Shown in pieces: positions 16,939 through 63,657 of a DNA stretch of 64,000 nt. Every line of letters begins with the position of its first letter. Positions within the stretch are counted from its first letter, which is position 1. Made by a program: the position numbers and the translations under genes. Below the pieces are notes generated by a model. That model was not told the origin of the DNA, searched no databases, and was given only the letters and a program-made list of their open reading frames with translations. Origin of the DNA: a virus; IMG/VR virus record IMGVR_UViG_3300050120_000152, positions 248,001-312,000 of that record. One strand, 5' to 3'.

Positions 16939-17347
16939 TATTTTTAGCCAATTGTATGATTTCACCATCATTACAGGATATAGCTAATTTAAATTCTATA
17001 TTTTTGGTACCATCTTCAAAATTTATGGGAAGGGTTACGTGTGCTTCATTATCCATTTCACATAAATTGGTCATAATTTCTTTACCTAATAGTGATATTT
17101 TACCAGAACCACAAGCATTTTTCAAACTTTCATATGAGTCCACATATAAAACGTTATCAGAGCCATAGACCACATTAATAATAGGAGATTCGCTTAAACA
17201 ATCAATAGTAACTTTAGTTGATACTGTAACAGGCTCATCTTCTATTGCTTCCACAATAGAAGATTTAAATTCAACCTCAGAATGTGCTAAATCTATATTC
17301 TCGGTAATAATATATTTTAATAATTTTTCTAAATTTTCAAATTTCAT
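16928..17347 (-). CDS. Hypothetical protein, 139 aa
   Basis: No family recognised. The sequence is acidic, with an N-terminal amphipathic helix (LEKLLKYIITE) and then alternating strands, suggesting a small beta-rich domain. Its ATG overlaps the stop of the 520 aa gene by one base, and its 3' end overlaps the adhesin start, so it is tightly coupled to both. Co-expression with a virion-like protein and an adhesin suggests a structural or assembly role, by position only. Confidence 0.6.
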   Translation of the reverse strand: MKFENLEKLLKYIITENIDLAHSEVEFKSSIVEAIEDEPVTVSTKVTIDCLSESPIINVVYGSDNVLYVDSYESLKNACGSGKISLLGKEIMTNLCEMDNEAHVTLPINFEDGTKNIEFKLAISCNDGEIIQLAKNNEL

Positions 17348-18909
17348 TAATTTAGTCCATTATTTACGGCTGCTTGTCCATTGGGTGCACCGGGAGCGGG
17401 CTGTCCAGTAGGGTTTTGTGGGTTTTGCGGAGGTTGAGGGTTTTGTGGATTCTGTGGATTCTGGTTATTTTGTTGGGGATTCTGTTGATGTTTAGCTTCA
17501 TCGGCATTATATTGTGTAGTCAATTGAGCAGCCTTTATTCTAGCATTTAATTGATCAGTATCACATTGAAACATAGCTTTTTTGTAAGCTTGTGTTTCAG
17601 CATCATCAGTCGGAACTATTTTATATTTGTCCTGTAACTGAAGCTTTTGTTTTTGTAATGTTTGAACATTATCGAATTGATCTTCATTTAACATTTTTAC
17701 CGCATCCAATAGAAACGATTTTGATTCGAATGCTGAATCTCCACCATTCTGACCTTTGCTAACATTATATCGAGCTAATTCAGCATATTTCTTTGCTTCT
17801 TTTGCTTTTTTCTTTTGAGCTTCTACTTCTGCACCAACTCTAGCCAACTCTTCTTGACGTTTTACTTCATGATCAGACGCGATAGCTGACCATTCAGCCT
17901 GTTTGGCACGCGCTTCTTCAGCAGCGGCTTCAGCTTGGGCTTCTTGGGCATTGGCTTGAGCTTTAAGCATGGCTACAATACTCTTAAGAATTGATTCTTC
18001 GCCGTCACCTTCCGGTTCAGTACCAAAATCTTCTACATTATCGCCTTCACCATTTTCATCACCCATACCCGGATTTAGCTCGTCGGCAGCACCTTGTACG
18101 CCCGATTCCTGACCTTGTGTGTTAGGTTCTCCCATTCCGCCTATATCAGCCCCTTGGTCGTCCATCGGAGTACTATTAGCATCCATATTAGGCTGTTCTA
18201 AGGAATTATTATCGCCCATACCACCAGCGTCACCATCCATTTCATCACTACCGTCGCCAAATTGATCAAATGATTTGTCAAAACCCGCAGTATCATCGTC
18301 ATCGGGGCTTACACCAGTATCAGGCTCTTTTGATGCCATATCAGCATTATAAACTACATCTTTTGGAATGATAGGAAAATCCACGGTAATAATTTCAAAT
18401 TTATCTCTCAAATTATATAAAATTTCAGCAAGAGAATTACCTTGTAAATTGATACCATTTTTCTTATTATCTTTATTATCAGCTAATTGAACCGCAATGG
18501 TTTCTTCAAATTCTTTAGCTTGATCACCGCGCACAGTAATACGCATGATATTACCTTTATCATCTTCTACGCCATAAGAAACCACACCCACATCATTTCC
18601 TGATGATTCGGTATCAGCATTTTTCAATCGTGATACAATATCGTTCATATCAAAATCTTCATTGGTTCTTCTACGTAATAACCATGCTTTGAAACCAGTT
18701 TTTTTCTTTTTAGCTTTGACGCGATCAAGCTCTGCACGCATTTTGGAATATTTTTCTTCATCAGCCTTTTCTTTAGGCGCATTTGCTCTCCAAACATGTT
18801 CACTACTTTTATGTTCTCGGCGGCTGTCACCAGATGGATTAGCTGCTATTGATCCAGCGCCTATTGATCCACCCATTGCGGTTTCTTGTAAATATTTTTT
18901 GAAACTCAT
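17347..18909 (-). CDS. Putative internal head or scaffold-like protein with capsid-targeting-type N-terminus
   Basis: A 520 aa protein of low complexity. It begins MSFKKYLQE-TAMGG, matching T4 capsid-targeting peptides that end in L/I-x-E and are cut by gp21. It continues with a basic stretch (about 45-85), a small domain (about 85-195), an Asp/Gly/Asn-rich acidic region (about 195-310), an Ala/Glu/Lys coiled coil (about 310-390) and a Pro/Gln/Asn-rich tail (about 478-520). Coiled coil plus acidity fits a prohead core or internal protein, but I cannot match it to gp22 or another named family. It has a CATAAATA late box and is followed without a gap by the 139 aa gene. Confidence 0.55.
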   Translation of the reverse strand: MSFKKYLQETAMGGSIGAGSIAANPSGDSRREHKSSEHVWRANAPKEKADEEKYSKMRAELDRVKAKKKKTGFKAWLLRRRTNEDFDMNDIVSRLKNADTESSGNDVGVVSYGVEDDKGNIMRITVRGDQAKEFEETIAVQLADNKDNKKNGINLQGNSLAEILYNLRDKFEIITVDFPIIPKDVVYNADMASKEPDTGVSPDDDDTAGFDKSFDQFGDGSDEMDGDAGGMGDNNSLEQPNMDANSTPMDDQGADIGGMGEPNTQGQESGVQGAADELNPGMGDENGEGDNVEDFGTEPEGDGEESILKSIVAMLKAQANAQEAQAEAAAEEARAKQAEWSAIASDHEVKRQEELARVGAEVEAQKKKAKEAKKYAELARYNVSKGQNGGDSAFESKSFLLDAVKMLNEDQFDNVQTLQKQKLQLQDKYKIVPTDDAETQAYKKAMFQCDTDQLNARIKAAQLTTQYNADEAKHQQNPQQNNQNPQNPQNPQPPQNPQNPTGQPAPGAPNGQAAVNNGLN

Positions 18910-18934
18910 TTGTTTATTCCGTTATATTTCATTA

Positions 18935-18942
18935 TATTTATG
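18935..18942 (-). promoter_or_regulatory. Late promoter candidate, CATAAATA
   Basis: CATAAATA on the minus strand, 26 nt before the ATG at 18909. Confidence 0.45.
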
Positions 18943-18948
18943 CCCGCA

Positions 18949-19434
18949 TTATCTAAACAGGGTTTTTTCTGTAGCAATTATGAACTCTATACCATGCTGA
19001 CTACACCATGCAGTGGCTGCTGACCATTTAGCTGTATTAACAGCATATGCATAGTTTTCTTGAAGCTTTATTGTGGGTTTTTTGGATTTAGATGGTTTAG
19101 TTTGTTTTTCGGGTTTTATTTCAATTAATTGTCGTTTCTCATTACCATGAGAATCAATAAATTCTACATATATATCGGGGAAATAATTAGCTTTACGCAT
19201 AGAGGCTTTACCATTAACCAAAATAGGTTTCATATATGGTATGGGAAATGGTTCAGATGCCCAACCTATAATATGAGGATTTTCATCTAAAAAAATAAAA
19301 ACTCGTTTTTCCCATGATGATCTAAATATTATTTTATCGAAATCGCCAATATACTTATATGTATTTTTTGGTATAAAATAATTTGCATGATGAGAAGTTC
19401 TTGTTAATTTGGGTTTATTTAGGGATAATGCCAT
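18949..19434 (-). CDS. 4: Head completion protein gp4-like (TnsA/nuclease-like fold)
   Basis: A 161 aa protein similar in pattern to T4 gp4 (also called gp50, 150 aa). Diagnostic stretches are YIGDFDKIIFRSSWEKRVF, then PHIIGWASEPFPIPY, then NYFPDIYVEF with the catalytic-type Asp, and LIEIKPEKQ with the E-x-K of PD-(D/E)xK nucleases. In T4 the protein is needed to complete DNA-filled heads before tail joining. Both the FPD and E-x-K residues are present, so the nuclease core may be active. Its start lies 20 bp inside the end of the gp54-like gene, so the two are co-translated. Confidence 0.8.
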   Translation of the reverse strand: MALSLNKPKLTRTSHHANYFIPKNTYKYIGDFDKIIFRSSWEKRVFIFLDENPHIIGWASEPFPIPYMKPILVNGKASMRKANYFPDIYVEFIDSHGNEKRQLIEIKPEKQTKPSKSKKPTIKLQENYAYAVNTAKWSAATAWCSQHGIEFIIATEKTLFR

Positions 19435-21758: not shown

Positions 21759-22496
21759 ATGCAATCCTTCAAAGCACATCTGTTAAACGAACTGTTAAAT
21801 GTCAAGCCTATTGAAAATGAGGCATTATTGACCTTAAGAAAAATTATTGATATGATTGATGATGGTCATGTTGATTATTCTACTGATAAAATTAAAATAA
21901 ATGTGGGTCGATTGATTAAAGATAAAAAATATAATAATCTAAACATTTATATACTTAAAGGTAAAAAAAGTCCGCGTATAGGACGGCATATAGAAACAGA
22001 AACTCATGCCATATTTTTATATTCTGAGAGATTGCCAGCAAGAGAAAAAATTGATGATTTCTTATCTGATCAAGAACGTACATCATCATTTAAATTACTA
22101 TTTAAAAAATTCTTCAATGATGCAGTATTTGATGATACTGATAAAGAACAAGATTCATCGTATGAAAAGAAAGCTAATTTGAATACTAGAAAAAGCTTTG
22201 AAAAAGCTTATATCGAGTTAGTCAATAAATTAAATAACCATATCGGTAAATATAGCTCCGCTAAAGGCGATCTTGATGGACGTATTGAAAAATCTAATCA
22301 CGATTTAGGTCATAAAGAAATATTAGGTCTTAGTTTAAGCAAAATCAAGCATGATATGATTGGCAATAGCGTCGAAGAATTCAAATCTAAAGCTATTGAT
22401 ATGTTTGGTAAAGAAAATTATAAATTATTAGATAAAGAATTCAGGGATAAATTGGATTCACGCTTAAATGATTATTACGAACATAAAATAAATTAA
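21759..22496 (+). CDS. Hypothetical, likely capsid-internal protein
   Basis: A 245 aa lysine- and glutamate-rich protein, no family recognised. It opens with MQSFKAHLLNE-LLN, very like the capsid-targeting peptides of T4 internal proteins (hydrophobic residues, then L-x-E at the cut site) and like other proteins in this window. The rest is mostly helical with a strand region (about 50-90) and high charge. It is isolated on the plus strand between gp19 and gp15, both minus, as expected of a mobile accessory gene. If packaged, it would be injected with the DNA. There is no Cys-rich or nuclease motif. Confidence 0.6.
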   Translation: MQSFKAHLLNELLNVKPIENEALLTLRKIIDMIDDGHVDYSTDKIKINVGRLIKDKKYNNLNIYILKGKKSPRIGRHIETETHAIFLYSERLPAREKIDDFLSDQERTSSFKLLFKKFFNDAVFDDTDKEQDSSYEKKANLNTRKSFEKAYIELVNKLNNHIGKYSSAKGDLDGRIEKSNHDLGHKEILGLSLSKIKHDMIGNSVEEFKSKAIDMFGKENYKLLDKEFRDKLDSRLNDYYEHKIN

Positions 22497-23334: not shown

Positions 23335-23342
23335 TATTTATT
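23335..23342 (-). promoter_or_regulatory. Late promoter candidate, AATAAATA
   Basis: AATAAATA on the minus strand, 19 nt before the gp15 ATG, overlapping the last base pairs of the upstream fibre gene. Confidence 0.4.
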
Positions 23343-25497
23343 AAGTGAATACGCCGCCAATGTAAATACTAAAATCGCTAGTCTGCGTAATACAATCAAC
23401 GAGGTTATTCAGACCTATATCTACGAAAGTACTATCCATTATACCAACCGAAGTTAAACGTGCAATATAATTATGCACATGACTCCCTATTGCAGTGAAG
23501 TCGCCACCAATATAAATCTTACCATCAATAACTGTTTGATATAATATTTTAATATACCCATTTACATCTATATCTATAAATGATGAGTCGAGTGTGCCGT
23601 TAGAATTTAATTTCGTTAAATAATTGTAACTATTGGTTCCTGCTGCGGTGAAATCACCACCTACATAAATTTTTGCATCTGCGGTTTGAATGATTGAATA
23701 TACATCATTATTCAAATCTAAATCAGTAAATCCAGTATCAACGGTTCCATCCGAATTTAATCTAGCAATATAATTGCGTGGTATTGATCCAATAGAGGTA
23801 AAATTACCTCCCAAATATATTTTTCCATCCGCCGTTTGATAAATGCAATTAATAGTTGAATTAAAATCAATACTCATAAAACTAGTATCTAATGTTCCAT
23901 CAGAATTCAAGCGAGCAAGATAATTATATGGGATTGATCCAATTGAGCTAAATGATCCTGCAACATATATTTTACCATCAGCTGTTTGATAGATATAATT
24001 TAATGAATTATTAAAATCTATAGGCATGAATGATGTGTCTAATGTACCATCGTAATGCAGTCTTAGGATATAGGTATAAGATAATGAACCATGTGATGTA
24101 AAATTACCTATAACATAAATTTTGTTATCTGATGTTTGGATAATGTCAATAACTGTGCTATCAACATCTAAACTCACATAAGATGTATCTAATGATCCAT
24201 CATAATTTAATCGGTCGAACAATGCCCATGCTGGCGATGATGAATCGCCATTGAAGAATGCTCCCCCAAAATAAATCTGTCCATCGGTAGATTGTATGAT
24301 AGCGTCTACTTGACCATCCAAAGAAAGATTAGTATAACCACGATTTATCGTACCATCTATATTCAATTTAGTCATATAGCCAGCTGCAACAGGTGGGGTT
24401 GATGTTGGTGTAGGAGTTAATGTAGGACTTACTGTGATGGTTGGTGTAATACTTGGCGTAACTGTAATTGTGGGAGTAATACTTGGCGTGATCGTAATTG
24501 ATGGTGTTGGGGTTGGGGTTGGTGTTGGCGTAAGTGATGATCCCGGTGCAGGGGTTGCAGATGGGGTTATTGATGTTGTTGGTGTAATGGTACGAGTTAC
24601 GGTTGGCGTAGGTGTTAGTGTCCGAGTTACTGTTGGAGTTACTGATATTGATATTGTAATTGTTGGTGTGTTAGAAATTGTTGGCGTTACACTCGGTGTA
24701 TCGGAAATAGTTGGGGTAACAGTCGGTGCTGGCGTTGGAGTAGGTGTTTCGGTAGCCATTGGTGTAACTGTAATAGTTGGTGTTATTGATATTGATCCAG
24801 TGACCGATGGGGTAACTGAAATAGTCTGCGTGACTGTTGGAGTCATCGTTGGAGTTGCAGTAGCTGTCGCGGTCATAGTTGGAGTAATTGTTACAGTTTG
24901 TGTTACTGTCAATGTAACGCTTGGTGTAGGCGTTAAGCTTTGTGTCAATGACACACTAGGGGTCAGTGTATGGGTAGGTGTTGGTGTAGCCTGTGGTGTC
25001 TTAGATGGCGTCACAGATACTGTTGCCGTTGGTGTTAGTGTAGGAGTTGATGGTATTTCAGATGAGGTTGATGGAGTTGGTGTAGGAGTTGGAGTCAATG
25101 AGGTTGATGGAGTGATGTTTACTGGTACTAAGGGATCGAGTGCTGATCCAAAATATAATATATTTGCCGTGCCAGTGCAATTACCCAAACGACCAAAATC
25201 CAGCCATATATTATTACTATCAATATAATTTATAATAGGTTCTATTTTAGTTAAAATATTATTAATATCGTTGATGAAAACATTGATGAATAACTGATTA
25301 GAGTTATTTCCATGAAATATTTTCCAAATAGTTGCGGGAACCGTCTGAACATGCTGTGTAGCATGTTCAAATTGTTCAAAATTTTTATCGGTGTTTATTA
25401 CTCTACCTAAATTTTTATCTAATAATAATTTTTTATATTTACTAAATCCACCGGCTATAGGAGTCACTGATGTAGATGGTGTAATTAAGTCATTCAT
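23341..25497 (-). CDS. Tail fibre protein with a Pro/Thr linker and a seven-bladed delta-60-type propeller
   Basis: A 718 aa protein in three parts. Residues 1-128 are an N-terminal attachment domain with an HATQHVQTVPATIWKIFH stretch of the kind found at the base of phage fibres. Residues 129-370 are an almost uninterrupted Thr/Pro/Ser/Val/Ile linker of about 240 residues. Residues 371-718 hold seven copies of a unit of about 45-50 residues: LNSDGTLDTSF...IYQTADGKIYVGGNFTS. That is the delta-60/DUF5122 beta-propeller repeat, so a seven-bladed propeller at the tip is likely. A surface-binding role is inferred. It lies between the giant baseplate gene and gp15 and has a CATAAATA late box. Confidence 0.75.
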   Translation of the reverse strand: MNDLITPSTSVTPIAGGFSKYKKLLLDKNLGRVINTDKNFEQFEHATQHVQTVPATIWKIFHGNNSNQLFINVFINDINNILTKIEPIINYIDSNNIWLDFGRLGNCTGTANILYFGSALDPLVPVNITPSTSLTPTPTPTPSTSSEIPSTPTLTPTATVSVTPSKTPQATPTPTHTLTPSVSLTQSLTPTPSVTLTVTQTVTITPTMTATATATPTMTPTVTQTISVTPSVTGSISITPTITVTPMATETPTPTPAPTVTPTISDTPSVTPTISNTPTITISISVTPTVTRTLTPTPTVTRTITPTTSITPSATPAPGSSLTPTPTPTPTPSITITPSITPTITVTPSITPTITVSPTLTPTPTSTPPVAAGYMTKLNIDGTINRGYTNLSLDGQVDAIIQSTDGQIYFGGAFFNGDSSSPAWALFDRLNYDGSLDTSYVSLDVDSTVIDIIQTSDNKIYVIGNFTSHGSLSYTYILRLHYDGTLDTSFMPIDFNNSLNYIYQTADGKIYVAGSFSSIGSIPYNYLARLNSDGTLDTSFMSIDFNSTINCIYQTADGKIYLGGNFTSIGSIPRNYIARLNSDGTVDTGFTDLDLNNDVYSIIQTADAKIYVGGDFTAAGTNSYNYLTKLNSNGTLDSSFIDIDVNGYIKILYQTVIDGKIYIGGDFTAIGSHVHNYIARLTSVGIMDSTFVDIGLNNLVDCITQTSDFSIYIGGVFT
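24387..25113 (-). repeat. Low-complexity repeat encoding a 240-residue Thr/Pro linker
   Basis: Degenerate hexanucleotide-like repeat of ACx-CCx codons interspersed with GTx, ATx and TCx. The opposite strand gives a long spurious Gly/Val reading frame. Confidence 0.85.
25346..25369. repeat. Intragenic hairpin, 10-bp arms
   Basis: TGAACATGCT and AGCATGTTCA with a GTGT loop, 45 codons into the propeller fibre gene. Confidence 0.6.
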
Positions 25498-25518: not shown

Positions 25519-25526
25519 TATTTATG
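25519..25526 (-). promoter_or_regulatory. Late promoter candidate, CATAAATA
   Basis: CATAAATA on the minus strand, 22 nt before the ATG at 25497; it touches the stop codon of the giant gene. Confidence 0.42.
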
Positions 25527-28500
25527 TTGGTGTTGGAGTTAAGGTAATAGTAGGAGTTACTGTGACAGTAGCTGTTAATGTTGGTGTAATAGTAGGTGTT
25601 ACTGTGGCAGTAGCTGTTATGGTTGGTGTGATTGTAATAGTAGGAGTGACAGAGATTGTGGGTGTTATGCTTGGAGTGATTGTAATAGTAGGAGTGAGGG
25701 TGGGTGTTGGCGATGGAGTAATACCTACACCAGAAATAGCTTCATAATGTGCAAAAATACTATCATCGGTCAATGCTGCCCCATAAAATGAGAAATTATC
25801 TATTCCACCAACAAAATTGTTGATGCTTGGAATATAGAATGGTGAACCACCTATATTAATACCATAGGTATTTGAAAATAAATTATTTCCTGTAACTGGT
25901 ATGGAAGTTTCTTCTATACCATTCACAAAAATACACATTTCGTCATTCATTCTACGACATGTTATGACATAGGATGAACCATCTGCAGATGTAGTTGATT
26001 GTATTTCGGCGGCTGGGAAATCTGTGGTTGCTATTCTAAAAGCAAATTTTCCAGTCGATGGATCAATAGCTAATTGCATTTGTGGTTGTTGTGACGATGT
26101 ATTATATGGAATATACACCAACATTGGAATAGCAGCATGTTGCTCTGCAGTAGTAGCATTGGTAGTTATTTCAAAAGTAAAATCGCCCGGAATATCTAAG
26201 AAACTACCATATGTACCTAATACCATATTATTTTGAGTGAAGTCATTATTAAACAATATTGATCTTACCGATCCTGCAATCAATCCCGGCTCACCCAATG
26301 TTATATTACCATTATAATAACCATTATTGCCATATAGCGAACTATCTAACGCTGTAGATGTAGCTAAATCGTCAAACTTATAATAAACTAATGGATTATC
26401 ATTCATTACAGCAGAGTCATACATGCTGATAGGCACTGGTGATAATGTTGGTGTGATGGTTGGTGTAATAGTAGTAGTTATTGTTGGTGTAATTGTAGGT
26501 GTTGGTGTTGGAGTATTAGTTGCCATAGGTGTTGGAGTATTAGTTGCGGTAGGTACTGGTGTTCCTGTGGCTACTGGGGTTGTTGTAGGTGTGATAGTTG
26601 TTGTAGGTGTGATAGTAGTAGAAACTGTCAACGATATTGTTGGGGTTAGCGACGGCGTCACGGTTACGGTTGGCGTAATAGTTGTAGAAACTGTAATAGT
26701 AGGTGTTATACTTGGTGTTGGTGATGGTGATGGTAACGGTGGCTGTGTTGGAACTGCAATATTATCAGCAATATCACATGCTCCACCCGGAAGAATATTA
26801 TTGATAATAGTAGTAGGATTAATATCAGACACATTAACATTTTGTGAAACGTCAATAGCAACCCACGAAGTTTTGAAAAAATCTGCGCTATTTTTCTTCA
26901 AACTCATTGCATCATTAAATGCCGCAAAATAAATGTAGTTAATATTAGATATATCAAAATTATCATATATTACATACATGGTATTAACAATGTTATTAAT
27001 ATTATCAAAATTATTAATAGCTAAAAATGAGTTTATATCAATGTTTATAAAATCTTGTGTAGGATCATTTAAAATACTTTGAATGGTAGCCAAAGTTAAG
27101 CTAGATGATGTAAATATTTGTTCAACACCCATACCATATTTGGTATCAGTACCATAGATATTATCAAATAATATTCTATCTAATGTGGGTAACGTTATCG
27201 TAGTATCAATGATTTTATTAGAAACCGGGTATCCTACCAATGCTGATATTAATTTTTCCCATAGATATAGATCGATTTTCTGTGATTGATTTTTTCTAAA
27301 CATTTTCCATTCATAATGAACATTTTTTAATGCTAATGGTGATTTAACCGGATTTGTGGTTGAATAATCGTAAATATCACCATTTATTGGCATTCTATCT
27401 CTTAAAGTAAAATCACGAGTAAATCTAAGCGCATAACGATTATCATCATTTACTAAGCCCTTTAGACCGCGAATGATCATTTTATTGAATCTAGCAGGTA
27501 AATCGTAAGCTGCACCATCAAATACATCACCAAACACAATGCCATATCCATCATCATTGTAACGCATTCCCGATAATATCATATATGGGTTTGGGTTAGT
27601 AATCAAATCGGATTGCGCCTGTATGATTGTTGATTGATAATTGCTAGTATTAGTAATGGTTGTCGGTGAACCGTTTACCCAGAAATAATAATACGGTACT
27701 AATGCACCATTTGTATTGCTTACGACATAAGTGGTAGAGTATGGGGTATCATACTTATAAACCATATTGGTAATGTCATCAGCGGTGGGGATAGGTGCAG
27801 GTAGCACTACTGTAATATAATCTTGTATATCAGGTTTATTGATCTGTCCCGGTAATAGTGCACCATACATATAATCGTAAAAATTATATAGTGTTAAATC
27901 CACACTCAAATCATATGTACCGTTACGATATATATTTACACTTCCTGAGAATGGAACTACGGTGGTTGTTTGAATTAATGCAGCTAATATACTAAATCGT
28001 TGATCTGAAACTTGATTCCAATTAGGATTTGTTATAGAGCCTTCATTATAATATAGGTTAACTATTGGGGTACCAGAGTTTGGATACTGCGAAGTATACT
28101 CTGATGGAGGGACTAAAGATTCCGTCCATTGATATAAGTTCAGTTTACCAATATTCGATAATTTACCCCAATTAGCTATTCTATCATTAATATTAGGAAA
28201 TACGCCATGATCAAAATATGGGATATAATCAAGTTCAGTAGTATCCATCCAAACTTTACCAGCTTTATATTTTAACCATACATCATTATAAATATTTCCT
28301 GTAAAATCAATTGAATAGGTTGCTGGATCATATGCAGTCTTTATGTCAACTAACGAATAGGCATATTGATCATGTTGATTTAATGCGGGATTCCATATAG
28401 CAATTTGGTTAACGATTACGCCCGCAGTCTTATCTACAAATACTGAAGAATTTTGCGCATTATAGTTATAGATCAAACAACTTATTTGGACATTATTTAA

Positions 28501-36018: not shown

Positions 36019-36048
36019 CAAGAGAATCCATCATTAGATTGTATGATC

Positions 36049-47393: not shown

Positions 47394-48581
47394 ATGGCTA
47401 CTTCTCAACAAATCTATAGTGAAATAAATTCAGCAATCAATCCTGAAAATTCTTCAAAGCGTCCTACTATGGCATGGATTGCTGGTACATTTAAGAAAGC
47501 CTATGATTTTGGTAGAATACAACGCGCTGTTGATGAACATTCTAAAGAACTTGATACAAAGACATTAGAAAATTTTATAAACACCTTAAAATTTAGAGAT
47601 ATTGCTGTAAAGAATGGTTTAATGACTAAAACTGATGAAGGTAAGTATGTAACCTCGGAAAGAGGAAATCGATTCATTCAGGATTTATCCAAAAATATTA
47701 AACAATGGGAGTCGATTAATGATCTTTCATTTAAACAGTTACGTGGTGAAGTTCAATCTGCAAAAGGTGAAGTAGATCAAGAATGGTATAATAACCTCCC
47801 TCCCGTTGAACAGCATGTCATTGACATTTATTCCAGATTGACTCCAAAAGAGTTTCATTTGTTGACTGGTCTTAAAAATGATCGAGATAACAAACAAAAA
47901 TATGTTAATCGTATAGAAACTCTTGAAGATAGTGATCCAGAATCTTATGCTATTTTACGAGATGCCGGAATTATTAACAATAAAAATCAAATAAACAATA
48001 CTTTACTATCAACATTCTTTGCTACATTGGCTAAGTATGATTATCGTCATCTTCGTTCATTCAATCGTAGTATATCAAGTAAATCTGATAGAATAGCTGC
48101 CGACAAAGGATTGGCACAAAATTATTTGAATCGTTCATTAGATAAAAATTCTCCACGTAACTCTGATATTGGTGTTAGAGCTAGGGAGTTCATTGAAGAT
48201 AGTAATGGATGCACTAAAAGTTGGATTGAGGCCATGGCAAAAGGGCCGGGTCAAGGTGTAAGATGTTCACAAGTGGATTTTGATGATTTGAGATTACAAG
48301 GTATAGTTACTACAGCGGCATCACGAGAATTAACTACTTTTGGTAAGCTTGTAGCTTCATTAATCAAAACGGGTAGGGGCATGAATTCGTTTGATGAAAA
48401 AGAACCGTTGAATTCTAGAATGCCAACTGGTGCTGTAGCTGATAATGATCGCCAGCGTCAACGATCTAAAATACTCGGTGGACGTAAGGCTGCATTTAAT
48501 GATAGAATGCATCGAACAAAAACAGAAGAATCTAAAAACCTTTCATTCAAGAAGTATCTCATCGAGCAGCAAGCTTCTTAA
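47394..48581 (+). CDS. Hypothetical protein, 395 aa, with a capsid-targeting-like motif at its C-terminus
   Basis: No family recognised. The protein is helical, charged and Asn/Ser/Arg-rich, without membrane segments. Residues about 1-110 look like a small winged-helix-rich domain; a second helical part (about 140-330) follows. The last 14 residues contain LSFKKYLIE-QQAS, nearly the same as the N-terminus MSFKKYLQE of the 520 aa protein at 18909. Such L-x-E peptides normally sit at the N-terminus in T4 internal proteins, so a C-terminal copy is odd: cleavage would remove only four residues. It has a late box and may be a head-associated protein. Confidence 0.6.
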   Translation: MATSQQIYSEINSAINPENSSKRPTMAWIAGTFKKAYDFGRIQRAVDEHSKELDTKTLENFINTLKFRDIAVKNGLMTKTDEGKYVTSERGNRFIQDLSKNIKQWESINDLSFKQLRGEVQSAKGEVDQEWYNNLPPVEQHVIDIYSRLTPKEFHLLTGLKNDRDNKQKYVNRIETLEDSDPESYAILRDAGIINNKNQINNTLLSTFFATLAKYDYRHLRSFNRSISSKSDRIAADKGLAQNYLNRSLDKNSPRNSDIGVRAREFIEDSNGCTKSWIEAMAKGPGQGVRCSQVDFDDLRLQGIVTTAASRELTTFGKLVASLIKTGRGMNSFDEKEPLNSRMPTGAVADNDRQRQRSKILGGRKAAFNDRMHRTKTEESKNLSFKKYLIEQQAS

Positions 48582-50531: not shown

Positions 50532-51398
50532 ATGTTAATCTATAAAATAACACATATGAATAGCGGTAAATCATACATAGGACTTACAACGCGTAAAACG
50601 GTATATCAACGATATAGAGAACATTTTTACGTTGCAAAACGTCATCATAATAAAAAAGGTAGTCCACATAAATTCAAAGATATTTTACATGAAGAAAATT
50701 ACGATAAATCTAAATTTAATGTTACTATATTAGATACGGCGTCAACTTTAATAGAACTTATTGAAAAAGAAGCTTATTATATAAAAAAATATGATACGGT
50801 TAATTCTGGATTTAATGTAGTAAATGGCGGAAGTGATACAGTGCATAGAGAGGCGGTATCTAAAGGATTGATAAAATATTGGGCAAATGTTGACGAAACC
50901 AAAAGACAAGAAAGAATAGATATACTTAAACATATGATATCAGAAAATAAAGAGAATTATGTCAATAGAGCAAAAAGTTTAGCAATCAAAAACTGTTTAC
51001 CTATAAAACTTATTTTATATGGGAATGAACACACATTCCAATCTTTATATTCTAATAATGGCTTAAAAAAATTTTGTGATATTAACAACATTAATTTTTA
51101 TGATTGTAAACAAAAGGCCAAGGGTACAATAGAGCAAGACCATGAAATCAAATGTTATTTCTTAGATATTAATGGTAATGAAATTAAATTTAATACAACA
51201 AGAAAAAAATTTGAAAAAAGTAAATATACAAAAACGAAATATAAATCTTATACTTTATTATCACCAAATAATAAAAAAACTGTTATTACTAATTTAAAAC
51301 AATTCTGTCATGAACATAGTCTGTGTATAAAAAATATATATGGAATATTAAACGGTAAAGAAAAGAGTCATAAAGGATGGAAAATATATAATGCTTAA
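50532..51398 (+). CDS. Free-standing GIY-YIG homing endonuclease (Seg-like)
   Basis: A 288 aa protein. The GIY-YIG domain is at 1-95: MLIYKITHMNSGKSYIGLTT (GIY and YIG elements), then VYQRYREHF with the Arg, and LIEKEAYYIKKYDT with the catalytic Glu, closing in GFNVVNGG. The remainder is Lys/Asn-rich with short DNA-binding repeats (a nuclease-associated modular unit), ending HKGWKIY. It lies between helicase and gene 47 as a mobile insertion and overlaps gene 47 by 8 bp. Base composition is more AT-rich than the neighbours. It has its own late box, while the genes around it look early, as seen for T4 Seg proteins. Confidence 0.88.
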   Translation: MLIYKITHMNSGKSYIGLTTRKTVYQRYREHFYVAKRHHNKKGSPHKFKDILHEENYDKSKFNVTILDTASTLIELIEKEAYYIKKYDTVNSGFNVVNGGSDTVHREAVSKGLIKYWANVDETKRQERIDILKHMISENKENYVNRAKSLAIKNCLPIKLILYGNEHTFQSLYSNNGLKKFCDINNINFYDCKQKAKGTIEQDHEIKCYFLDINGNEIKFNTTRKKFEKSKYTKTKYKSYTLLSPNNKKTVITNLKQFCHEHSLCIKNIYGILNGKEKSHKGWKIYNA

Positions 51399-58297: not shown

Positions 58298-60025
58298 ATG
58301 GCTAATCCAGAAAATGGAAAATTAACTAAAATATACAAAATCATAACACCGGAATCGCCGAGAACCAGCGTCACGGATAGTCAAGATTTAGCCGGTAATT
58401 ATGGGTTGTATGGTAATTATAGTTTTATGAACAAGTTGATGCAAGGCAGTTCTATGCGCTTGCAACGATATCGCGAATACGACATGATGGATGAAGATAC
58501 TGATGTGAGTAGAGCATTGGATATCATTGCCGAAGAAATTGTAGGTAATAACCCAAAATCAGATTTACCATTAATATTAAAAATTACTGCTGGCGAAGAA
58601 CAGCAAGTTAATTCTCGTACTGTAGTCACATTAAAGGCAGCATTAAATACATGGTGTAATATCCATAGATGGAATCGTAGACTTTATACTACTGTAAGAA
58701 ATACAATTAAATATGGTGATACATTCTTTTTTAGAAATGAAAAACCAAACCTACCTAATAAATATGTCAATCCTAAACACGTTATAGGTGCAGTTGTAAC
58801 AAAAACCGATGTTAATGATGTTAAAGGATGGCAAATTCAAACTGATTATGACAAAGCATCCCAAAATATAAACTTTGCCATTACAGGAAATTCTTCACAA
58901 ACTTATAATGTGGAAAACTACACCCCTGAAGAAGTTATACGATTTGGTTTGCATGATGATATGAGTGATGAAGCCCCATTTAGTCAATCTATTCTTAAAG
59001 CAGCATACAAAATTTTCAAACAAAAGCAGATGCTGGAAGATTCTTTATTAATTTATAGAATACAACGCGCACCAGAAAAACGAGTATTCAAGCTTGAAAT
59101 TGGTAATACACCACCACATCTAAAATCACAAATTTTAGAAAATGCTAAGAATGAAATCAAGCAACGTAAAATACCAACTCCTTATGGTGGTGGTAATCAG
59201 GTAGAATCCATTTATTCACCAATGTCAATGAATGAAGATTTCTTTTTTACAATGAAGAATGGTGTTGGGTCTACTGTAGAAACCTTACCGGGTGGTCAGA
59301 ATCTTGGTCAGCTTGACGATCTTAATTATTTCTATAGCAAAATGTGGAGAGCTTTAAGAATCCCTCAATCCTATATGGACAATGGAGTCGAAGGTGGCAC
59401 GCCATTCAATGATGGTAAGGTTGGCATAGCCTATCAACAGGAAATCAAATTTACGCTTTATATTGAGTCATTACAAGTACATTTTGAAGATATTCTTGAT
59501 AGAGAATTTAAAAAATTCTTACGTGATCAAAAAATAAATATTGATCCAACTATTTTTAAAGTTGTATTACCTGAACCATCAAATTTCAAAAAGTCTCGTG
59601 ATAATGAAATTGACCAAACATTAGTAGCTTTAGCAACATCTGCTGGTGCTATTGATTGGTTATCTAAGAGATATATCGCTATACATTATCTACAGATGAC
59701 TAAGGCCGATCTTCTTATTAATGAACGACAGAAAGCTGAAGAATTGGGTCTTGACCCTAATGATACTATTAAGAATATGGCTAAAATATATTCACCTGAG
59801 AATGCCGATTCTGGTGGTTATGATGGTGGTATGACTGGTGGTAGTGGAGGATCATCAGATTTAAGTGGTATGCCAGCTGATGATATAGGCGGGGATGATG
59901 ATGGTGCTGATACTGGCGAAGCTGGTACAGGTGAAGAAAATGCTAAAGGTAGTGCTAATAATGGTGCAGAAACAGGTGGAAATGCTTCAAAAGGACAAAA
60001 TCCTCCTAAGAATGGCAAAACATAA
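58298..60025 (+). CDS. 20: Portal protein (gp20-like)
   Basis: A 575 aa protein (T4 gp20 is 524 aa). It shows the gp20 run MQGSSMRLQRYREYDMMDED, then VSRALDIIAEEI, YGDTFFFRNEKP, then SPMSMNEDFFFTMKNGVGS, VETLPGGQNLGQLDDLNYF and KMWRALRIPQSYM. These belong to the clip, stem and tunnel regions of T4-type portals. Twelve copies form the DNA-entry vertex and start prohead assembly. The last 75 residues are a Gly/Asp/Ala-rich disordered tail not typical of T4. It heads the late head-gene run. Confidence 0.93.
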   Translation: MANPENGKLTKIYKIITPESPRTSVTDSQDLAGNYGLYGNYSFMNKLMQGSSMRLQRYREYDMMDEDTDVSRALDIIAEEIVGNNPKSDLPLILKITAGEEQQVNSRTVVTLKAALNTWCNIHRWNRRLYTTVRNTIKYGDTFFFRNEKPNLPNKYVNPKHVIGAVVTKTDVNDVKGWQIQTDYDKASQNINFAITGNSSQTYNVENYTPEEVIRFGLHDDMSDEAPFSQSILKAAYKIFKQKQMLEDSLLIYRIQRAPEKRVFKLEIGNTPPHLKSQILENAKNEIKQRKIPTPYGGGNQVESIYSPMSMNEDFFFTMKNGVGSTVETLPGGQNLGQLDDLNYFYSKMWRALRIPQSYMDNGVEGGTPFNDGKVGIAYQQEIKFTLYIESLQVHFEDILDREFKKFLRDQKINIDPTIFKVVLPEPSNFKKSRDNEIDQTLVALATSAGAIDWLSKRYIAIHYLQMTKADLLINERQKAEELGLDPNDTIKNMAKIYSPENADSGGYDGGMTGGSGGSSDLSGMPADDIGGDDDGADTGEAGTGEENAKGSANNGAETGGNASKGQNPPKNGKT

Positions 60026-60054: not shown

Positions 60055-60342
60055 ATGGAATCGAAAGAATATTTAAAGCAAGTAGTTAATGCATTGGTTA
60101 ACGGCAATGAAACCGAAGCCAAAGAGATTCATCATGCCTATGTTGAGCAGAAATCTCAAGAATTACTTAAAGAAGATAAAATTTCTTTAAAAGGTGCTGT
60201 AGATTTTATCAAAAAAACAAAAGCTGCTATTGCAGCATGTGATCCAAAAGACATTGAAAAATTAAAAGAATTACGTCATACATTATCATCGGCTGAAGAA
60301 CAGTTTGAGAATGATGAAAATGAAAATGAGTTTGATAAATGA
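60055..60342 (+). CDS. 67: Prohead core protein gp67-like
   Basis: A 95 aa protein from the ATG at 60055, with GAAAGGA 8 nt upstream; the TTG one codon earlier is unlikely. The N-terminal helix VVNALVNGNETEAKEIHHAY followed by VEQKSQELLKEDKISL resembles the T4 gp67 sequence with its EAIKSNDLVAARKLF and IDLIKEEKIAI stretches. The rest is charged and helical with an acidic end. In T4, gp67 is part of the prohead core and is cut by gp21 into packaged peptides. Order portal then 67 is as in T4. Confidence 0.72.
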   Translation: MESKEYLKQVVNALVNGNETEAKEIHHAYVEQKSQELLKEDKISLKGAVDFIKKTKAAIAACDPKDIEKLKELRHTLSSAEEQFENDENENEFDK

Positions 60343-60608
60343 AAATTCAAGATGTGCTATCCGAGAAGTTTGATCCGAGTGATAGAGACTATCACAAACA
60401 GACGGTGGCAGTGAAAAATAGTTCAACTGCAAAATTACCAAATGCATTTGTAAATAAACATATTACCCCGGTAGCATATCGTAATGGTAATTCTGTGAAT
60501 GATGAAATTGGATTAGATTTTACCAGCCACGATTACACCAAGGATGAACCCATTGCCAAGGATGGCAAACCTAAAAAGAAAAAAGTAAAGGAAGATAGTG
60601 AGTCATGA
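60339..60608 (+). CDS. Putative internal/core head protein with MKIQDVLSE leader
   Basis: An 89 aa basic protein with no recognised family. It starts MKIQDVLSE-KF, a short amphipathic peptide ending L-x-E, as in T4 capsid-targeting sequences, and almost the same as MKIQNVLTE of the protein at 62386. The body is Lys/Asp/Asn-rich with a Lys-rich C-terminus (KPKKKKVKE), suited to packing with DNA. It overlaps its neighbours by 4 bp on both sides within the head operon, which supports a head role. Confidence 0.6.
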   Translation: MKIQDVLSEKFDPSDRDYHKQTVAVKNSSTAKLPNAFVNKHITPVAYRNGNSVNDEIGLDFTSHDYTKDEPIAKDGKPKKKKVKEDSES

Positions 60609-60799
60609 AAATTGGAAGTTTTAAAGAATATAGAAATTCAATAAAAGGTTCACCATATCATTACTTGGAAACCAATACAACAGAATTTGAACAAGCAGAA
60701 ATAAAGGATGGGTTAGCACCATCCGAAGACGAAAAAGATATCGAAAATAAGAAATCCTTATTACAATATTTATTATATGCTAATGCAGCCAACCAATAA
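60605..60799 (+). CDS. Small putative core head protein, 64 aa
   Basis: A short charged protein starting MKIGSFKEYRNSI, which shares SFK-x-Y with the targeting peptides MSFKKYLQE and LSFKKYLIE, though no clear L-x-E cut site follows. It has an acidic middle and a hydrophobic helix at the end (LLQYLLYANAA). It is overlapped by the preceding gene (ATGA) and followed 14 bp later by the next core gene. Position within 20-67-...-21 suggests a role in the prohead core. Confidence 0.55.
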   Translation: MKIGSFKEYRNSIKGSPYHYLETNTTEFEQAEIKDGLAPSEDEKDIENKKSLLQYLLYANAANQ

Positions 60800-60813: not shown

Positions 60814-61365
60814 ATGAGTATGCAAGACGATCTAAAAACAGTATTTGATAGTGTAGTCAAGAAAGATGATGATGCAGCTTCTGCTGCATTCAGCGCCTAT
60901 ATTGATCAAAAATCTGTAGAAGTATTAAAAGGTTTAACTGAAGCAAAATTTAAATCACCCATTCAAATCAAGGGTAATGATGTATTCGTCAACGGTAAAA
61001 AGGTGGGTGGCGTCAAGCATAATGCTGAGGAAAATAAGGGATTGGAATATACCCCTACAGATGGTGAAAAACAGAAGTTTCCTAAGTTAGGCGATCTATA
61101 TACTCATTTGGGTAAAGAACATAAATTGAGTGAAAGCGCAACCGATTTGAAAGGTATTGTTAAAGATTATGAATCTGAAGTACAATCATTACCAAACCGT
61201 CCTAAGTTGTCTAAACTTAAAGCATTTAGTTCAGCTAAGGGCGCAGGTTTGGATGCCGATGGTGATCATGATGGCGAAGAAGATGGTGCAAGTGCTGATG
61301 CTAAGCGTGAAGCGCCTATCAAGAAATTAGTTGCAAAAGTAGACGCAGAGAAGAAGGTTAAGTAA
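60814..61365 (+). CDS. Second gp67-type prohead core protein (gp68 position)
   Basis: A 183 aa protein. Residues 1-42 repeat the gp67-type helix pair (DDLKTVFDSVVKKDDDAASA, FSAYIDQKSVEVLKGLTE), so it is probably a paralogue of the 60055 gene with a longer body. LTE-AKF at about 41-43 could be a gp21 cut. The rest is Lys/Asp/Gly-rich, with an acidic DGDHDGEEDG stretch near 150 and a basic end. It takes the place of gene 68 just before the protease gene. TGAGGA precedes its start, and its stop overlaps the protease ATG by one base. Confidence 0.6.
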   Translation: MSMQDDLKTVFDSVVKKDDDAASAAFSAYIDQKSVEVLKGLTEAKFKSPIQIKGNDVFVNGKKVGGVKHNAEENKGLEYTPTDGEKQKFPKLGDLYTHLGKEHKLSESATDLKGIVKDYESEVQSLPNRPKLSKLKAFSSAKGAGLDADGDHDGEEDGASADAKREAPIKKLVAKVDAEKKVK

Positions 61366-61994
61366 TGGAACTGTTGATTGAACACTATACCAGTTCTGAA
61401 GCTAACGTTATAACCGAATCAGCTAACGGCGGGAAGGATGTATATTTGAGTGGTAGATTTTTATCTGGAAATTTAAAGAACCGTAATGGTAGAATTTATC
61501 CAGTGAACGAAATCATGCAAGCTGTTATGTCTTTGAATGAAGGTATCCGCGAACATGGTTCTATTGCTGGTGAATTAGATCATCCAGCTAATCGTTTAAC
61601 CACAGAACTTAAATATGCTTCCCATGTTATTACTGAAATTCGTATGGATGGTGATAATGCTACTGGTAAGATGAAAATCATGAATACTCCTAATGGATTA
61701 GTTGTAAAAGAATTAATCCGTAACGGTTTTCGTCCTGATGTATCATCTCGCGGTGCTGGTAATGTTGGTTCTGATGGTGTAGTTGAAGGATTCCTGATTC
61801 AAACTATTGACATAGTTAACCAAGCATCTGGCATTGGATGTTCACCAGTATCTGTTTATGAATCATTGGAAGATAATAAATTTGGTCGTAGAGCAGTATC
61901 ATTGGCAGAAGCAGTATTAGAAGACCAAGCTGCACAAAAATATCTTATTGCCGAAGTGAAGCGATTCATGGATGCATTAAAATATAATAAGTAA
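61365..61994 (+). CDS. 21: Prohead protease (gp21-like)
   Basis: A 209 aa protein, the size of T4 gp21 (212 aa). YLSGRFLSGNLKNRNGRIYP, then IAGELDHPAN with catalytic His73, then FRPDVSSRGAG with the catalytic Ser at 127 or 128, are the family signatures of this herpes-type serine protease. It cuts core, capsid and packaged proteins after L/I-x-E. Its own N-terminus has VITE-SANG (residues 15-22), a likely self-cleavage site. A terminator follows, and genes 22 and 23, which come next in T4, do not. Confidence 0.92.
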   Translation: MELLIEHYTSSEANVITESANGGKDVYLSGRFLSGNLKNRNGRIYPVNEIMQAVMSLNEGIREHGSIAGELDHPANRLTTELKYASHVITEIRMDGDNATGKMKIMNTPNGLVVKELIRNGFRPDVSSRGAGNVGSDGVVEGFLIQTIDIVNQASGIGCSPVSVYESLEDNKFGRRAVSLAEAVLEDQAAQKYLIAEVKRFMDALKYNK

Positions 61995-62015: not shown

Positions 62016-62037
62016 AAAGCCCCTTTCGGGGCTTTTT
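62016..62037 (+). terminator. Rho-independent terminator after gene 21
   Basis: Stem AAAGCCCC/GGGGCTTT (8 bp) with a TTTC loop, then TTTTT. It overlaps the region just beyond the convergent gene's stop, so it may serve both strands. Confidence 0.85.
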
Positions 62038-62038
62038 G

Positions 62039-62386
62039 TTATTCTATTTCCATAGATTCATCAGGCTCGCGTTCCATACCTTGAGAACCTTGTTGTCTGA
62101 AATTATCTCTAGCCTGACCCAAGTTTCTACGATCAACACTACCACCAAGCTTATTAGCATAATTTAATGCCATAGTACCACGTTCTGTAATATCTAAAGC
62201 GATATCATCAACTAATCCCAAAGCAGCTAAACCTTCAACTGCATCATGTGCTTGAGGGGAAGCATCATCAAAATTAAATTTATTTGATGCAATCTTTCTT
62301 AAAATACCAACTTGCAAGGGCGATAACTGTTTATATGCTAATACTGCACCACCACCATCTTCTGTTAAAACGTTTTGAATTTTCAT
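62039..62386 (-). CDS. Putative packaged winged-helix protein with MKIQNVLTE leader
   Basis: A 115 aa protein. Residues 1-9 (MKIQNVLTE-DGG) resemble a capsid-targeting peptide ending L-x-E. Residues 18-80 look like a winged-helix domain: LSPLQVGILRKIAS, AVEGLAALGLVDDI and LDITERGTMALNYANKL follow the MarR/PadR-like helix-turn-helix-wing pattern. The C-terminus is Gln/Arg/Glu-rich. If the leader is real, a DNA-binding protein is packaged and delivered with the genome. It has both a sigma70-like promoter and an AATAAATA box, so it could be made early and late. A GGAGAG ribosome site precedes the ATG. Confidence 0.6.
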   Translation of the reverse strand: MKIQNVLTEDGGGAVLAYKQLSPLQVGILRKIASNKFNFDDASPQAHDAVEGLAALGLVDDIALDITERGTMALNYANKLGGSVDRRNLGQARDNFRQQGSQGMEREPDESMEIE

Positions 62387-62404
62387 AATACTCTCCGATG
62401 TTAT

Positions 62405-62412
62405 TATTTATT
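62405..62412 (-). promoter_or_regulatory. Late promoter candidate, AATAAATA
   Basis: AATAAATA on the minus strand, 19 nt before the ATG at 62386. Confidence 0.4.
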
Positions 62413-62420
62413 TGAGTTTG

Positions 62421-62449
62421 ATGATAAGATGAACATATTTTAATGTCAA
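62421..62449 (-). promoter_or_regulatory. Sigma70-like promoter, TTGACA-N17-TATCAT
   Basis: On the minus strand TTGACA (62444-62449), 17 bp, TATCAT (62421-62426), a one-mismatch match to consensus, upstream of the winged-helix gene. Confidence 0.6.
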
Positions 62450-62554
62450 GCACTTCTTGTAAAATGAAATTAATTATGTTAGACTTGATAAGTTAATTAT
62501 GAAGTCGAAATATGTCTACAATATTAAAAATAAAAATAACAGCGAGGGAATTGG

Positions 62555-63121
62555 ATGACTTGTATAGTAGCTTTAAAAGATAAAAATAAAGTATATATGG
62601 CTGGTGATTCTCTTGGTACTGACCCAGTAACCTTACAGAAAACCGTGAGATTAGATGAAAAAGTTTTTATAAAAACTGATATGTTATTCGGATTTACTTC
62701 ATCATTTAGAATGGGACAAATTATACGTTATGTATTTGATATTCCCGAGCGAATGGAAGCTATTGGTGATATGGAATATCTTGTAGCACATTTTATACCA
62801 GCCTTGATAAAATGTTATGAAGACCAAGGATTCCTTAAAAAACCTGATGATAATGAATATCAAGGGGGGCATTTTTTGTTAGGATATCGTGGTAATTTTT
62901 ATGATGTTCTTGATGATTTTCAGATAGGCATTCCAACATTAAATTATGAAGCCATAGGATGTGGTGAAGATTATGCCAAAGGTTCAATGTATACCACAGA
63001 AACGTTGGAAGATAAACTAGATAAAAAACTAACCCCACAAAAACGCCTTACCATGGCATTAGATGCAGCATGCGAGCATTCTGCGGGCGTAGCAGCACCC
63101 TATATCATATTGAGTATATAA
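62555..63121 (+). CDS. Proteasome beta/HslV-like Ntn hydrolase
   Basis: A 188 aa protein with the proteasome-type Ntn fold. After Met removal Thr2 would be the nucleophile: TCIVALKDKNKVYMAGDS, with the conserved Asp at position 17 counted from Thr. A Lys (DEKVF) stands where the catalytic Lys is expected. FGFTSSFRMGQIIRY, HFLLGYRGNFYDV and IGCGEDYAKGSM follow, the last being the family's G-x-G-x-x-YAxG motif. No ATPase partner is seen. Such genes occur in some phages and actinobacteria with unknown targets. A GAGGGA ribosome site precedes the start, and the stop overlaps the next gene's ATG by one base. Confidence 0.82.
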   Translation: MTCIVALKDKNKVYMAGDSLGTDPVTLQKTVRLDEKVFIKTDMLFGFTSSFRMGQIIRYVFDIPERMEAIGDMEYLVAHFIPALIKCYEDQGFLKKPDDNEYQGGHFLLGYRGNFYDVLDDFQIGIPTLNYEAIGCGEDYAKGSMYTTETLEDKLDKKLTPQKRLTMALDAACEHSAGVAAPYIILSI

Positions 63122-63657
63122 TGAATAAATTTACTGAAGTATTCTTGACAGAATCAAAAAAACCATCCCGAGTATTTAAAGCTCCTGTAAAAACGATTCT
63201 TCCGAAAGATGGAGTTTCTATATTTTTAGCTGGTTCTATTGAAATGGGCAAAGCCGAAGATTGGCAAACTAAAGTTACCAAATTACTTACAAGTCATTAC
63301 GAAAATATTTACATTTTCAATCCTCGTAGAGATGACTGGTCATCTGACTGGAAACAAGAAATAGAAAATAAACAATTTAACGAACAAGTTACATGGGAAC
63401 TATCCCATATTGAATCATCTACAATTATGTTAGTTCATTTTGATCCAAAAACCCAATCTCCCATTACTCTAGCTGAGTTGGGAATTGCTTGTGGTAAATT
63501 CCCCGATAAAGTGATAGTATCGTGCCCTGAAGGCTTTTTTCGTAAGGGTAATGTGGATATCATATGTCATCGTTACGGGGTTACACAGATTGAATCATTA
63601 GATGATGAATTAATTGAAGCTGTAGCAAAAAAATCAAACAAATTAAAGGAGAAATGA
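63121..63657 (+). CDS. Nucleoside 2-deoxyribosyltransferase-like enzyme with capsid-targeting-like N-terminus
   Basis: A 178 aa protein from the ATG at 63121; the upstream extension to 63070 lies inside the Ntn gene. The fold motifs are ISIFLAGSIEMG-like (33-43), FNPRRDDW (66-73), EQVTWELSHIESS (88-100) and PITLAELGIACG (114-125), where Glu119 is the expected nucleophile. These match the Nuc_deoxyrib_tr2 family, which transfers or hydrolyses the N-glycosidic bond of (deoxy)nucleosides. It begins MNKFTEVFLTE-SKK, an L-x-E peptide like those of packaged proteins. It may be a salvage enzyme, or an injected enzyme acting on host nucleotides. It is coupled to the Ntn gene. Confidence 0.78.
   Translation: MNKFTEVFLTESKKPSRVFKAPVKTILPKDGVSIFLAGSIEMGKAEDWQTKVTKLLTSHYENIYIFNPRRDDWSSDWKQEIENKQFNEQVTWELSHIESSTIMLVHFDPKTQSPITLAELGIACGKFPDKVIVSCPEGFFRKGNVDIICHRYGVTQIESLDDELIEAVAKKSNKLKEK

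Follow-up and report, generated by a model that had tools for sequence, protein, structure and literature searches.

Candidate T4-type capsid-targeting leaders on unrelated proteins of a jumbo phage and its relatives

Internal proteins of phage T4, as well as its protein Alt, carry N-terminal capsid-targeting peptides that are cut by gp21 after L/I-x-E, and both IPI and Alt are delivered into the host with the DNA. Capsid-targeting sequences as such are already known, and a passage of one review proposes that T4-like phages package varied proteins by means of them (PMC9026906). Here we analyze a 64,000-nucleotide stretch (the window; bases 248001-312000) of IMG/VR virus record IMGVR_UViG_3300050120_000152 (340,344 bp in total, or ~340 kb), which represents a T4-superfamily jumbo phage with an S77 (gp21-type) prohead protease. 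Several unrelated proteins of this phage start with a short peptide ending in L-x-E. We read these peptides, with a probability of roughly 0.85, as the jumbo-phage form of the T4 capsid-targeting sequences and gp21-cleavage leaders, in which case the proteins would stay in the head with the DNA. This reading draws on the S77 protease, conservation in orthologs, the hydrophobic register of the peptides, a leader on an enzyme family that is mostly untagged, and a tag found at the other end of one protein.

The original prediction had pointed to five N-terminal L-x-E leaders, to VITE near the start of the gp21 homolog, and to a similar peptide at one C-terminus, and the translations bear out all of these (a slash marks the putative cut):

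18883..18909, minus strand: leader MSFKKYLQE/T of a 520-residue protein (open reading frame, ORF, 17347-18909); the orthologs in phages XacN1 and RAS14 also have L-x-E
21759..21791, plus strand: leader MQSFKAHLLNE/L of a 245-residue protein (ORF 21759-22496); orthologs start MRFTSYLIE (XacN1) and MSFKTFLIE (RAS14)
48540..48566, plus strand: C-terminal tag LSFKKYLIE, then QQAS, of a 395-residue protein (47394-48581); XacN1 and RAS14 counterparts are tagged N-terminally
60339..60365, plus strand: leader MKIQDVLSE/K of an 89-residue protein (ORF 60339-60608), between portal and protease; similar place and start in other jumbo phages
61365..61994, plus strand: gp21-type prohead protease (Peptidase_S77, PF03420, E=7.3e-18, over the cut-off; phrog_207, head maturation protease)
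62360..62386, minus strand: leader MKIQNVLTE/D of a 115-residue protein (ORF 62039-62386); orthologs start MKIQNILSE (XacN1), MKIKTLLE (RAS14) and MKIQDILCE (locus L017)
63121..63153, plus strand: leader MNKFTEVFLTE/S of a nucleoside 2-deoxyribosyltransferase-like enzyme (63121-63657; Nuc_deoxyri_tr2, PF15891, E=2e-33)

The nearest relatives of the protease in the phage collection are those of Stenotrophomonas RAS14/CM1 and Xanthomonas XacN1 (~49% identity), and it is 45-49% identical to annotated prohead core proteins or proteases. It contains a putative self-cleavage site, VITE/S, which reads IITE in the XacN1 and RAS14 proteases. In the proposed mechanism, an N-terminal amphipathic peptide of mostly 7-13 residues (one candidate ends 15 residues from its called start), hydrophobic at P7, P4 and P3 and with Glu at P1, would dock unrelated proteins in the prohead scaffold core. 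The phage's own gp21-type protease would then cut after the Glu, and the mature protein would be retained in the head with the DNA. Docking, cutting and packaging are what we infer, from a protease, a motif, a register, a conservation pattern and a movability that are read from sequence.

The bare motif is expected by chance in ~5% of proteins and is weak evidence by itself; conservation in relatives makes it strong. We compared 234 reciprocal-best-hit families with two or three members from this phage, XacN1 and RAS14, with the expectation taken from aligned internal windows. All members of 15 families have [LI].E ending at residues 7-13, relative to 4.1 families expected (p=2.2e-5), and seven control motifs (E.[LI], [LI].D, [LI].K, [LI].Q, [VF].E, [KR].E and [ST].E) were at background. 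The 15 families include the major capsid protein (MCP) as well as a few unlikely leaders, such as a GroES and a family with a doubtful start.

The hydrophobic register of the leaders was examined in 14 families selected by [LI].E alone, with the MCP family excluded. P4 was hydrophobic in 27 of 35 peptides (background 0.30, p=1.3e-8) and P7 in 20 of 32 (background 0.35, p=0.0024), with no hydrophobic enrichment at P5, P6 or P8 in these families. According to part of the review cited above, residues 4 and 7 of T4 IPIII are needed for targeting and residues 8 and 10 for processing (PMC9026906). In the IPIII start, MKTYQEFIAE, these residues are P7, P4, P3 and P1, and the jumbo-phage leaders share this layout, for example I, V, L and E in MKIQNVLTE. 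This suggests that the T4 targeting code is common to XacN1-type jumbo phages, whose leaders would then be usable in protein delivery studies. RsoM2USA is a further phage that has been placed with XacN1 (PMC8504454).

A tighter leader pattern, derived from the window's own leaders and hence partly circular, matched 13 of 521 genes of this phage relative to 1.4 expected (p=2.8e-9; four of the 13 are examples from the original prediction) and 3 of 1383 spurious ORFs. Observed and expected counts were 5/601 vs 1.1 in XacN1, 5/548 vs 1.1 in RAS14, 3/455 vs 1.3 in PA5oct, 1/268 vs 0.7 in T4 and 3/365 vs 0.9 in phiKZ (p=0.07).

The 395-residue protein differs from its counterparts in the end that carries the tag. 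These start with MRFVQYLIE in XacN1 (190362-191417) and MSFVQFLIE in RAS14 (138721-139761), and from the sequences the tag has most likely switched ends between them and the 395-residue protein. Using a tag-stripped hidden Markov model (HMM) of the XacN1 and RAS14 proteins, the 395-residue protein ranked first in this phage (E=5.9e-4; next 0.53), and the reverse searches ranked the XacN1 and RAS14 proteins first (E=0.047 and 0.0054). In the family alignment, residues 1-9 of the RAS14 protein and a few C-terminal residues of the XacN1 protein were missing. Comparison by hhalign gave E=5.5e-4 with a probability of only 30%, the match lying away from both ends, and shuffled controls reached the pairwise score in 5 of 300 cases for XacN1 and 0 of 300 for RAS14. 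Gene order therefore carries part of the case for homology, the gene and its two counterparts having the same neighbors on both sides. A tblastn search with the 395-residue protein gave no match in the phage collection, and the homology emerged only when the proteins called in the two relatives were searched by profile and by sequence. A predicted structure of the protein was discarded (predicted local distance difference test, pLDDT, 45). Because a cut after LIE would take off just QQAS, the C-terminal peptide may serve in targeting without being cut away as a leader; the protein offers a natural experiment on tag function at that end. A scan for the C-terminal tag pattern gave 24 matches in six phages, only one of them with SFKKYL. 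The gp21 protease is known to process T4 Alt at its C-terminus, as stated in part of the review (PMC9026906).

In the case of the deoxyribosyltransferase-like enzyme, the leader sits on a protein whose relatives mostly lack one, suggesting that the tag is modular. In the 42 of 56 fetched IMG/VR loci that were examined (two of which, L019 and L020, look identical), the relatives start at the enzyme body and the leader was not seen, as far as they are readable. Two of them (L025 and L050) are cut at a contig end, a few others have a frame open upstream without a leader-like peptide, and one (L021) is doubtful, its upstream Met yielding MGNGVLIKE, which is acceptable to a leader pattern. The start at 63121 is plausible, since its ATG shares bases with the stop codon of the preceding gene (TAATG); of the in-frame alternatives close by, the ATG at 63070 falls within that preceding gene and the TTG at 63145 within the leader itself.

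Further tagged proteins are encoded elsewhere in the record, among them the following, one of which is a homolog of Acb1, an enzyme that acts against the cyclic-oligonucleotide-based anti-phage signaling system (CBASS):

record 83334-83843: Acb1 (anti-CBASS) homolog with leader MKLETLSEALKE (PF23474, E=1.5e-36)
record 330611: GNAT protein with leader MKLKTLHE
record 4788: PARP-like protein, sub-threshold (E=0.021, 14.8 bits vs a cut-off of 26.7), with leader MKINSILE
record 117514: kinase-like protein, by eye only, with leader MKIQYLIE
record 50371 and 102019: helix-turn-helix (HTH)-like proteins with the tag

The Acb1 homolog covers positions 1-144 of the 144-position PF23474 profile (125.7 bits vs a cut-off of 27) and matches PDB entry 7t26 (E=9.8e-20), with the alignment beginning at its residue 17. 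Two starts are possible for it, the GTG adopted here and an ATG in the same frame two codons further upstream. The translation contains two H-x-T motifs, LHTTI and THFTL, which we take to be the catalytic motifs, and cleavage of CBASS cyclic nucleotides is predicted. Acb1 homologs with [LI]xE also occur in XacN1 (MGRHLAEILLE), RAS14 (MARSLMEILME) and two IMG/VR contigs (MKLIDITE and MKLTELQE). T4 57B has the same full domain, but [LI]xE at residues 7-13 was found in none of the six Straboviridae Acb1 proteins examined, 57B included. The tagged product of locus L079 1223-1909 (record 117523-118209) has DLSVHNIM...TDPF, which by eye recalls a kinase active site; its Pfam match is weak and implausible, and its RAS14 ortholog is tagged too (MKLIDLFE). 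IMG/VR scans for relatives of the kinase-like protein, the PARP-like protein and the 245-residue protein found none, and PADLOC and NCBIfam searches gave weak matches only.

This set of unrelated tagged proteins suggests ready-made weapons delivered with the phage DNA. The soluble enzymes (the Acb1 homolog and the PARP-like, GNAT and deoxyribosyltransferase-like proteins) and the DNA-binding-like proteins might enter the host with the DNA, which we propose with lower confidence than their retention in the head. We advance only tentatively the further idea that they form an injected counter-defense kit, packed via one tag that works from either end, which would hit CBASS as well as host nicotinamide adenine dinucleotide (NAD) and nucleotide defenses before phage gene expression. 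If true, the anti-CBASS enzyme arrives ready-made in the particle and is not expressed after infection.

Virion data come from other phages, as no virion proteomics was found for this phage. The record of PA5oct marks 93 proteins as detected by electrospray ionization tandem mass spectrometry (ESI-MS/MS), including proteins with the leader-like starts MKINDIITE, MKIKDILVE and MKILEFNLTE. The first of these, EST35_0150, adjoins the portal gene, near the place of the 60339 gene of the window. EST35_0150 is similar in place and start to the 89-residue protein, as are proteins of Atu_ph07 (MKLTELFNPLTE) and RaK2 (MLFKDIFE); the bodies are only weakly similar. Searches of PA5oct, RaK2 and T4 with HMMs of the leader families recovered Acb1 in T4, a single family in RaK2 and PA5oct, and a few weak matches, so the PA5oct data are unusable family by family. 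Mass spectrometry data for XacN1 virions are public (PXD008065), as reported in part of the XacN1 paper (PMC5852040), and the main text of that paper does not mention ORF296, 299, 300, 319, 347 or 352; of these, ORF296 has a leader ending in NILSE, ORF347 one in KLNE and ORF352 one in SYLIE. For Atu_ph07, 131 virion proteins are reported (PMC6102473). In PA5oct, candidate cut sites are those of EST35_0150, EST35_0238, EST35_0380 and EST35_0381.

Several observations weigh against reading the peptides as T4-type leaders. The plain motif, [LI].E ending at residues 7-11, occurs in 48 of 541 genes of the whole record relative to 25.5 expected, so that about half of the matches would be due to chance, and it is unenriched in XacN1 (24/601 vs 27.2) and RaK2 (43/569 vs 35.6, p=0.12). 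[LI].K is likewise raised at the N-termini of several phages. For these reasons, matches to the motif within a single genome do not suffice to identify cargo. The tighter pattern shows no clear enrichment in RaK2 (4/569 vs 1.6, p=0.08). A wider pattern, R2, matches 8 of 268 T4 genes relative to 2.0 expected, including IPII and IPIII. It also catches starts that we take to be those of lysozyme and a helicase, so some of the leaders listed here will be false. Within families, no leader is seen in the XacN1 counterpart of the 50371 protein or in the F52 counterpart of this phage, an HTH protein of XacN1 has V-L-E in place of [LI]xE, and identity over the first 12 residues (45%, ten families) is no higher than that of the bodies (44%). 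As for the register, P2 is also raised (19/35 hydrophobic vs 0.31, p=0.0054) and P1' is unrestricted. The link to mass spectrometry in PA5oct is modest: the leader pattern, widened after the detected list was seen, matches 4 of the 93 detected proteins and 2 of 388 others (p=0.014), the latter being our own ORF calls and not the coding sequences listed in the record, and a broad pattern matches 13 of 93 and 36 of 388 (p=0.13). The counter-defense idea in turn loses some probability, since in two Straboviridae Acb1 proteins L-x-E ends at residue 5 (VR26, MTLNE; Apostate, MKLSE), and three others (RB43, GEC-3S and avDM12) have F-x-E, which makes the contrast in Acb1 leaders with T4-like phages less sharp.

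Among other explanations, the one that survives best is that the leaders are gp21 sites of head-structural or scaffold proteins, as in T4 gp24, gp67 and gp68, and not of injected cargo; we place this short of even odds. The T4 capsid vertex protein gp24 starts with MAKINELLRE and is annotated as cut by gp21, and its propeptide has the length of a capsid-targeting sequence according to part of a published account (PMC5694885). In the window, the leader-bearing gene at 60339 sits between those for portal and protease, the place occupied in T4 by gp67 and gp68. The 520-residue family shares with the MCP an arm that follows L-x-E. After LQE, the protein of this phage reads TAMGGSIGAGSIA, which resembles by eye the arm of its MCP after the presumed cut (LNE/TASSGAIGAGDIA); the XacN1 ortholog reads MTKQKLNE/TAGGGATGAG and the RAS14 ortholog MTKSLNE/TAGAGAIGTG. 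An arm motif was searched for in the proteins called for five jumbo phages, T4 and phiKZ. It lies within the first 130 residues of each jumbo phage's MCP and of the XacN1 and RAS14 members of the 520-residue family, while the 520-residue protein of this phage has no exact match. The motif also occurs in PA5oct 127321-128817 (marked ESI-MS/MS) and in one phiKZ protein, which looks like chance. Pfam gives no match for the 520-residue protein, and PHROGs a weak one only (E=0.031). Its MCP-like arm supports cutting at L-x-E and suggests a head-structural role, and it more likely stays in the head. On the other hand, the tagged Acb1 homolog, GNAT and deoxyribosyltransferase-like protein are catalytic in kind and unlikely to be scaffold. 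T4 gp61.1 (T4 18966-19130) starts with MKTFKEFIKE and continues with GTTSGAVV, much like gp23 past its cleavage site; in analogy to the 520-residue protein, this small protein would combine a capsid-targeting-like start with an MCP-like arm.

The original prediction that the tagged proteins are packaged and injected thus holds in part. T4-type leaders are supported by the protease, the orthologs and the register, and packaging is likely. Injection of all of them does not follow, given that the gp24 leader belongs to a shell protein and that the 520-residue protein has an MCP-like arm. Hypothetical injection is best kept, by analogy, for the enzymes and the DNA-binding-like proteins.

It is highly improbable that the N-terminal peptides are host-directed signals for membrane anchoring or export, or the first helix of a fold with an incidental Glu. 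The peptides are amphipathic, and in other phages, too, a short stretch precedes the first strand of Acb1, with L-x-E ending at residue 5 in two of the six examined. However, only [LI].E is kept in orthologs above expectation, and not [LI].D, [LI].K, [LI].Q or E.[LI], and a like peptide occurs at a C-terminus. In the model of the 115-residue protein, the one small model available, the leader has very low confidence (weak evidence on this point), with moderate confidence only for about residues 21-60. Its body is perhaps a winged helix; a Foldseek search against the PDB gave only a hint, with weak matches to MarR-type regulators (best E 0.63). Least probable of all is chance, under which short hydrophobic starts with a Glu behind them arise often and the examples were selected: half of the plain-motif matches of this phage, and the lack of enrichment in XacN1, would agree with it, but the 15 conserved families, the P4/P7 register and the scarcity of the tighter pattern in spurious ORFs compared to genes do not.

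Two further features belong to the head-gene block:

58298..60025, plus strand: portal (gp20) gene, first of the head-core block; gene order as in XacN1 and RAS14, where the gene in the same place is annotated as portal vertex protein
60605..60799, plus strand: 64-residue protein with SFKEY and without L-x-E; its XacN1 and RAS14 counterparts (matched by place and by eye) read FSEYLAE/S and FREHLAE/N

The cleavage site of the 64-residue protein has apparently been lost in this phage. Portal, small core genes and protease are clustered in an arrangement that matches XacN1 and RAS14. Scaffold-like and capsid-like genes lie at record 11997-14353, the capsid-like one being the reciprocal best hit of the annotated MCP of XacN1. 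In the head-gene region of the relatives, a YbiA-like gene (XacN1, L007 14104-14544) has the protease gene on one side and capsid genes on the other, with an annotated NUDIX gene nearby, and a COG3236-annotated gene of RAS14 (L008 13944-14363) has a similar place; these could form an NAD/ADP-ribose cluster.

Proteins encoded at window 62555-63121, locus L004 13278-13829 and XacN1 107528-108118 start with MTCIV/I-G..D...GDS and resemble N-terminal-nucleophile hydrolases of the proteasome/HslV type, the fold being named by eye. Two copies are present in this phage and one was seen in XacN1; the window copy has no Pfam match. Very long Thr/Pro-rich linkers (TPTPTPSITPT...) occur in large, probably tail or surface proteins (window 14908-16971, 23341-25497, 25522-36021 and 41882-44323, and L004). 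The gene at window 50532-51398 is GIY-YIG/homing-endonuclease-like by eye and is flanked by helicase-like and gp47-like genes.

The papers listed for capsid targeting, for internal or ejected proteins and for virion-borne Acb1 mainly concern T4, SPN3US and P1; within a search that covered few subscription journals, no title dealt with leaders in this clade and no paper on Acb1 packaging was found. A jumbo-phage review treats, in part, injected or encoded signal-degrading enzymes, and its main text does not use the term 'capsid targeting' (PMC7824862). Within the literature searched, three things are new: that orthology extends such leaders to this clade, that the tag is found on an Acb1 homolog and on PARP-like, GNAT and deoxyribosyltransferase-like proteins, and that it has most likely switched ends in one protein. 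If the leaders are of the T4 type, a scan that combines motif and orthology reveals, from sequence, a large share of what the heads contain in a giant-phage clade that has been little studied.

Compared to known systems, polyvalent injected proteins, the subject of PMC5512222, are reportedly large multidomain proteins, whereas the set described here consists of small proteins, each with its own short tag. There is a likeness in content, as ADP-ribosyltransferase, GNAT and nucleotide-signal-degrading domains are treated as phage-injected or deployed in parts of the jumbo-phage review (PMC7824862). Giant phages phiKZ and SPN3US resemble this phage in that propeptides are removed by a prohead protease from head and ejected proteins; in the account consulted in part (PMC5694885), several SPN3US propeptides exceed 100 residues and one has 20, while those found here mostly have 7-13 and are not long propeptides, and phiKZ shows little enrichment of this leader. 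The T4 gp24 and gp23 propeptides share the N-terminal L-x-E, after which the 520-residue family goes on with an MCP-like arm, E-TA-xx-G. The closest likeness is to the leaders of T4 IPI, IPII, IPIII and Alt, in length, L/I-x-E site, P7/P4 register, S77 protease and unrelated bodies. The jumbo-phage set, known from sequence alone, differs from these in comprising 17 candidate leader families in three phages, in its cargo (Acb1 homolog, PARP-like, GNAT, deoxyribosyltransferase-like and HTH-like proteins), in its sequences (MKIQxxLxE or SFxxYLxE vs MKTYQEFIAE) and in carrying one tag at the C-terminus.

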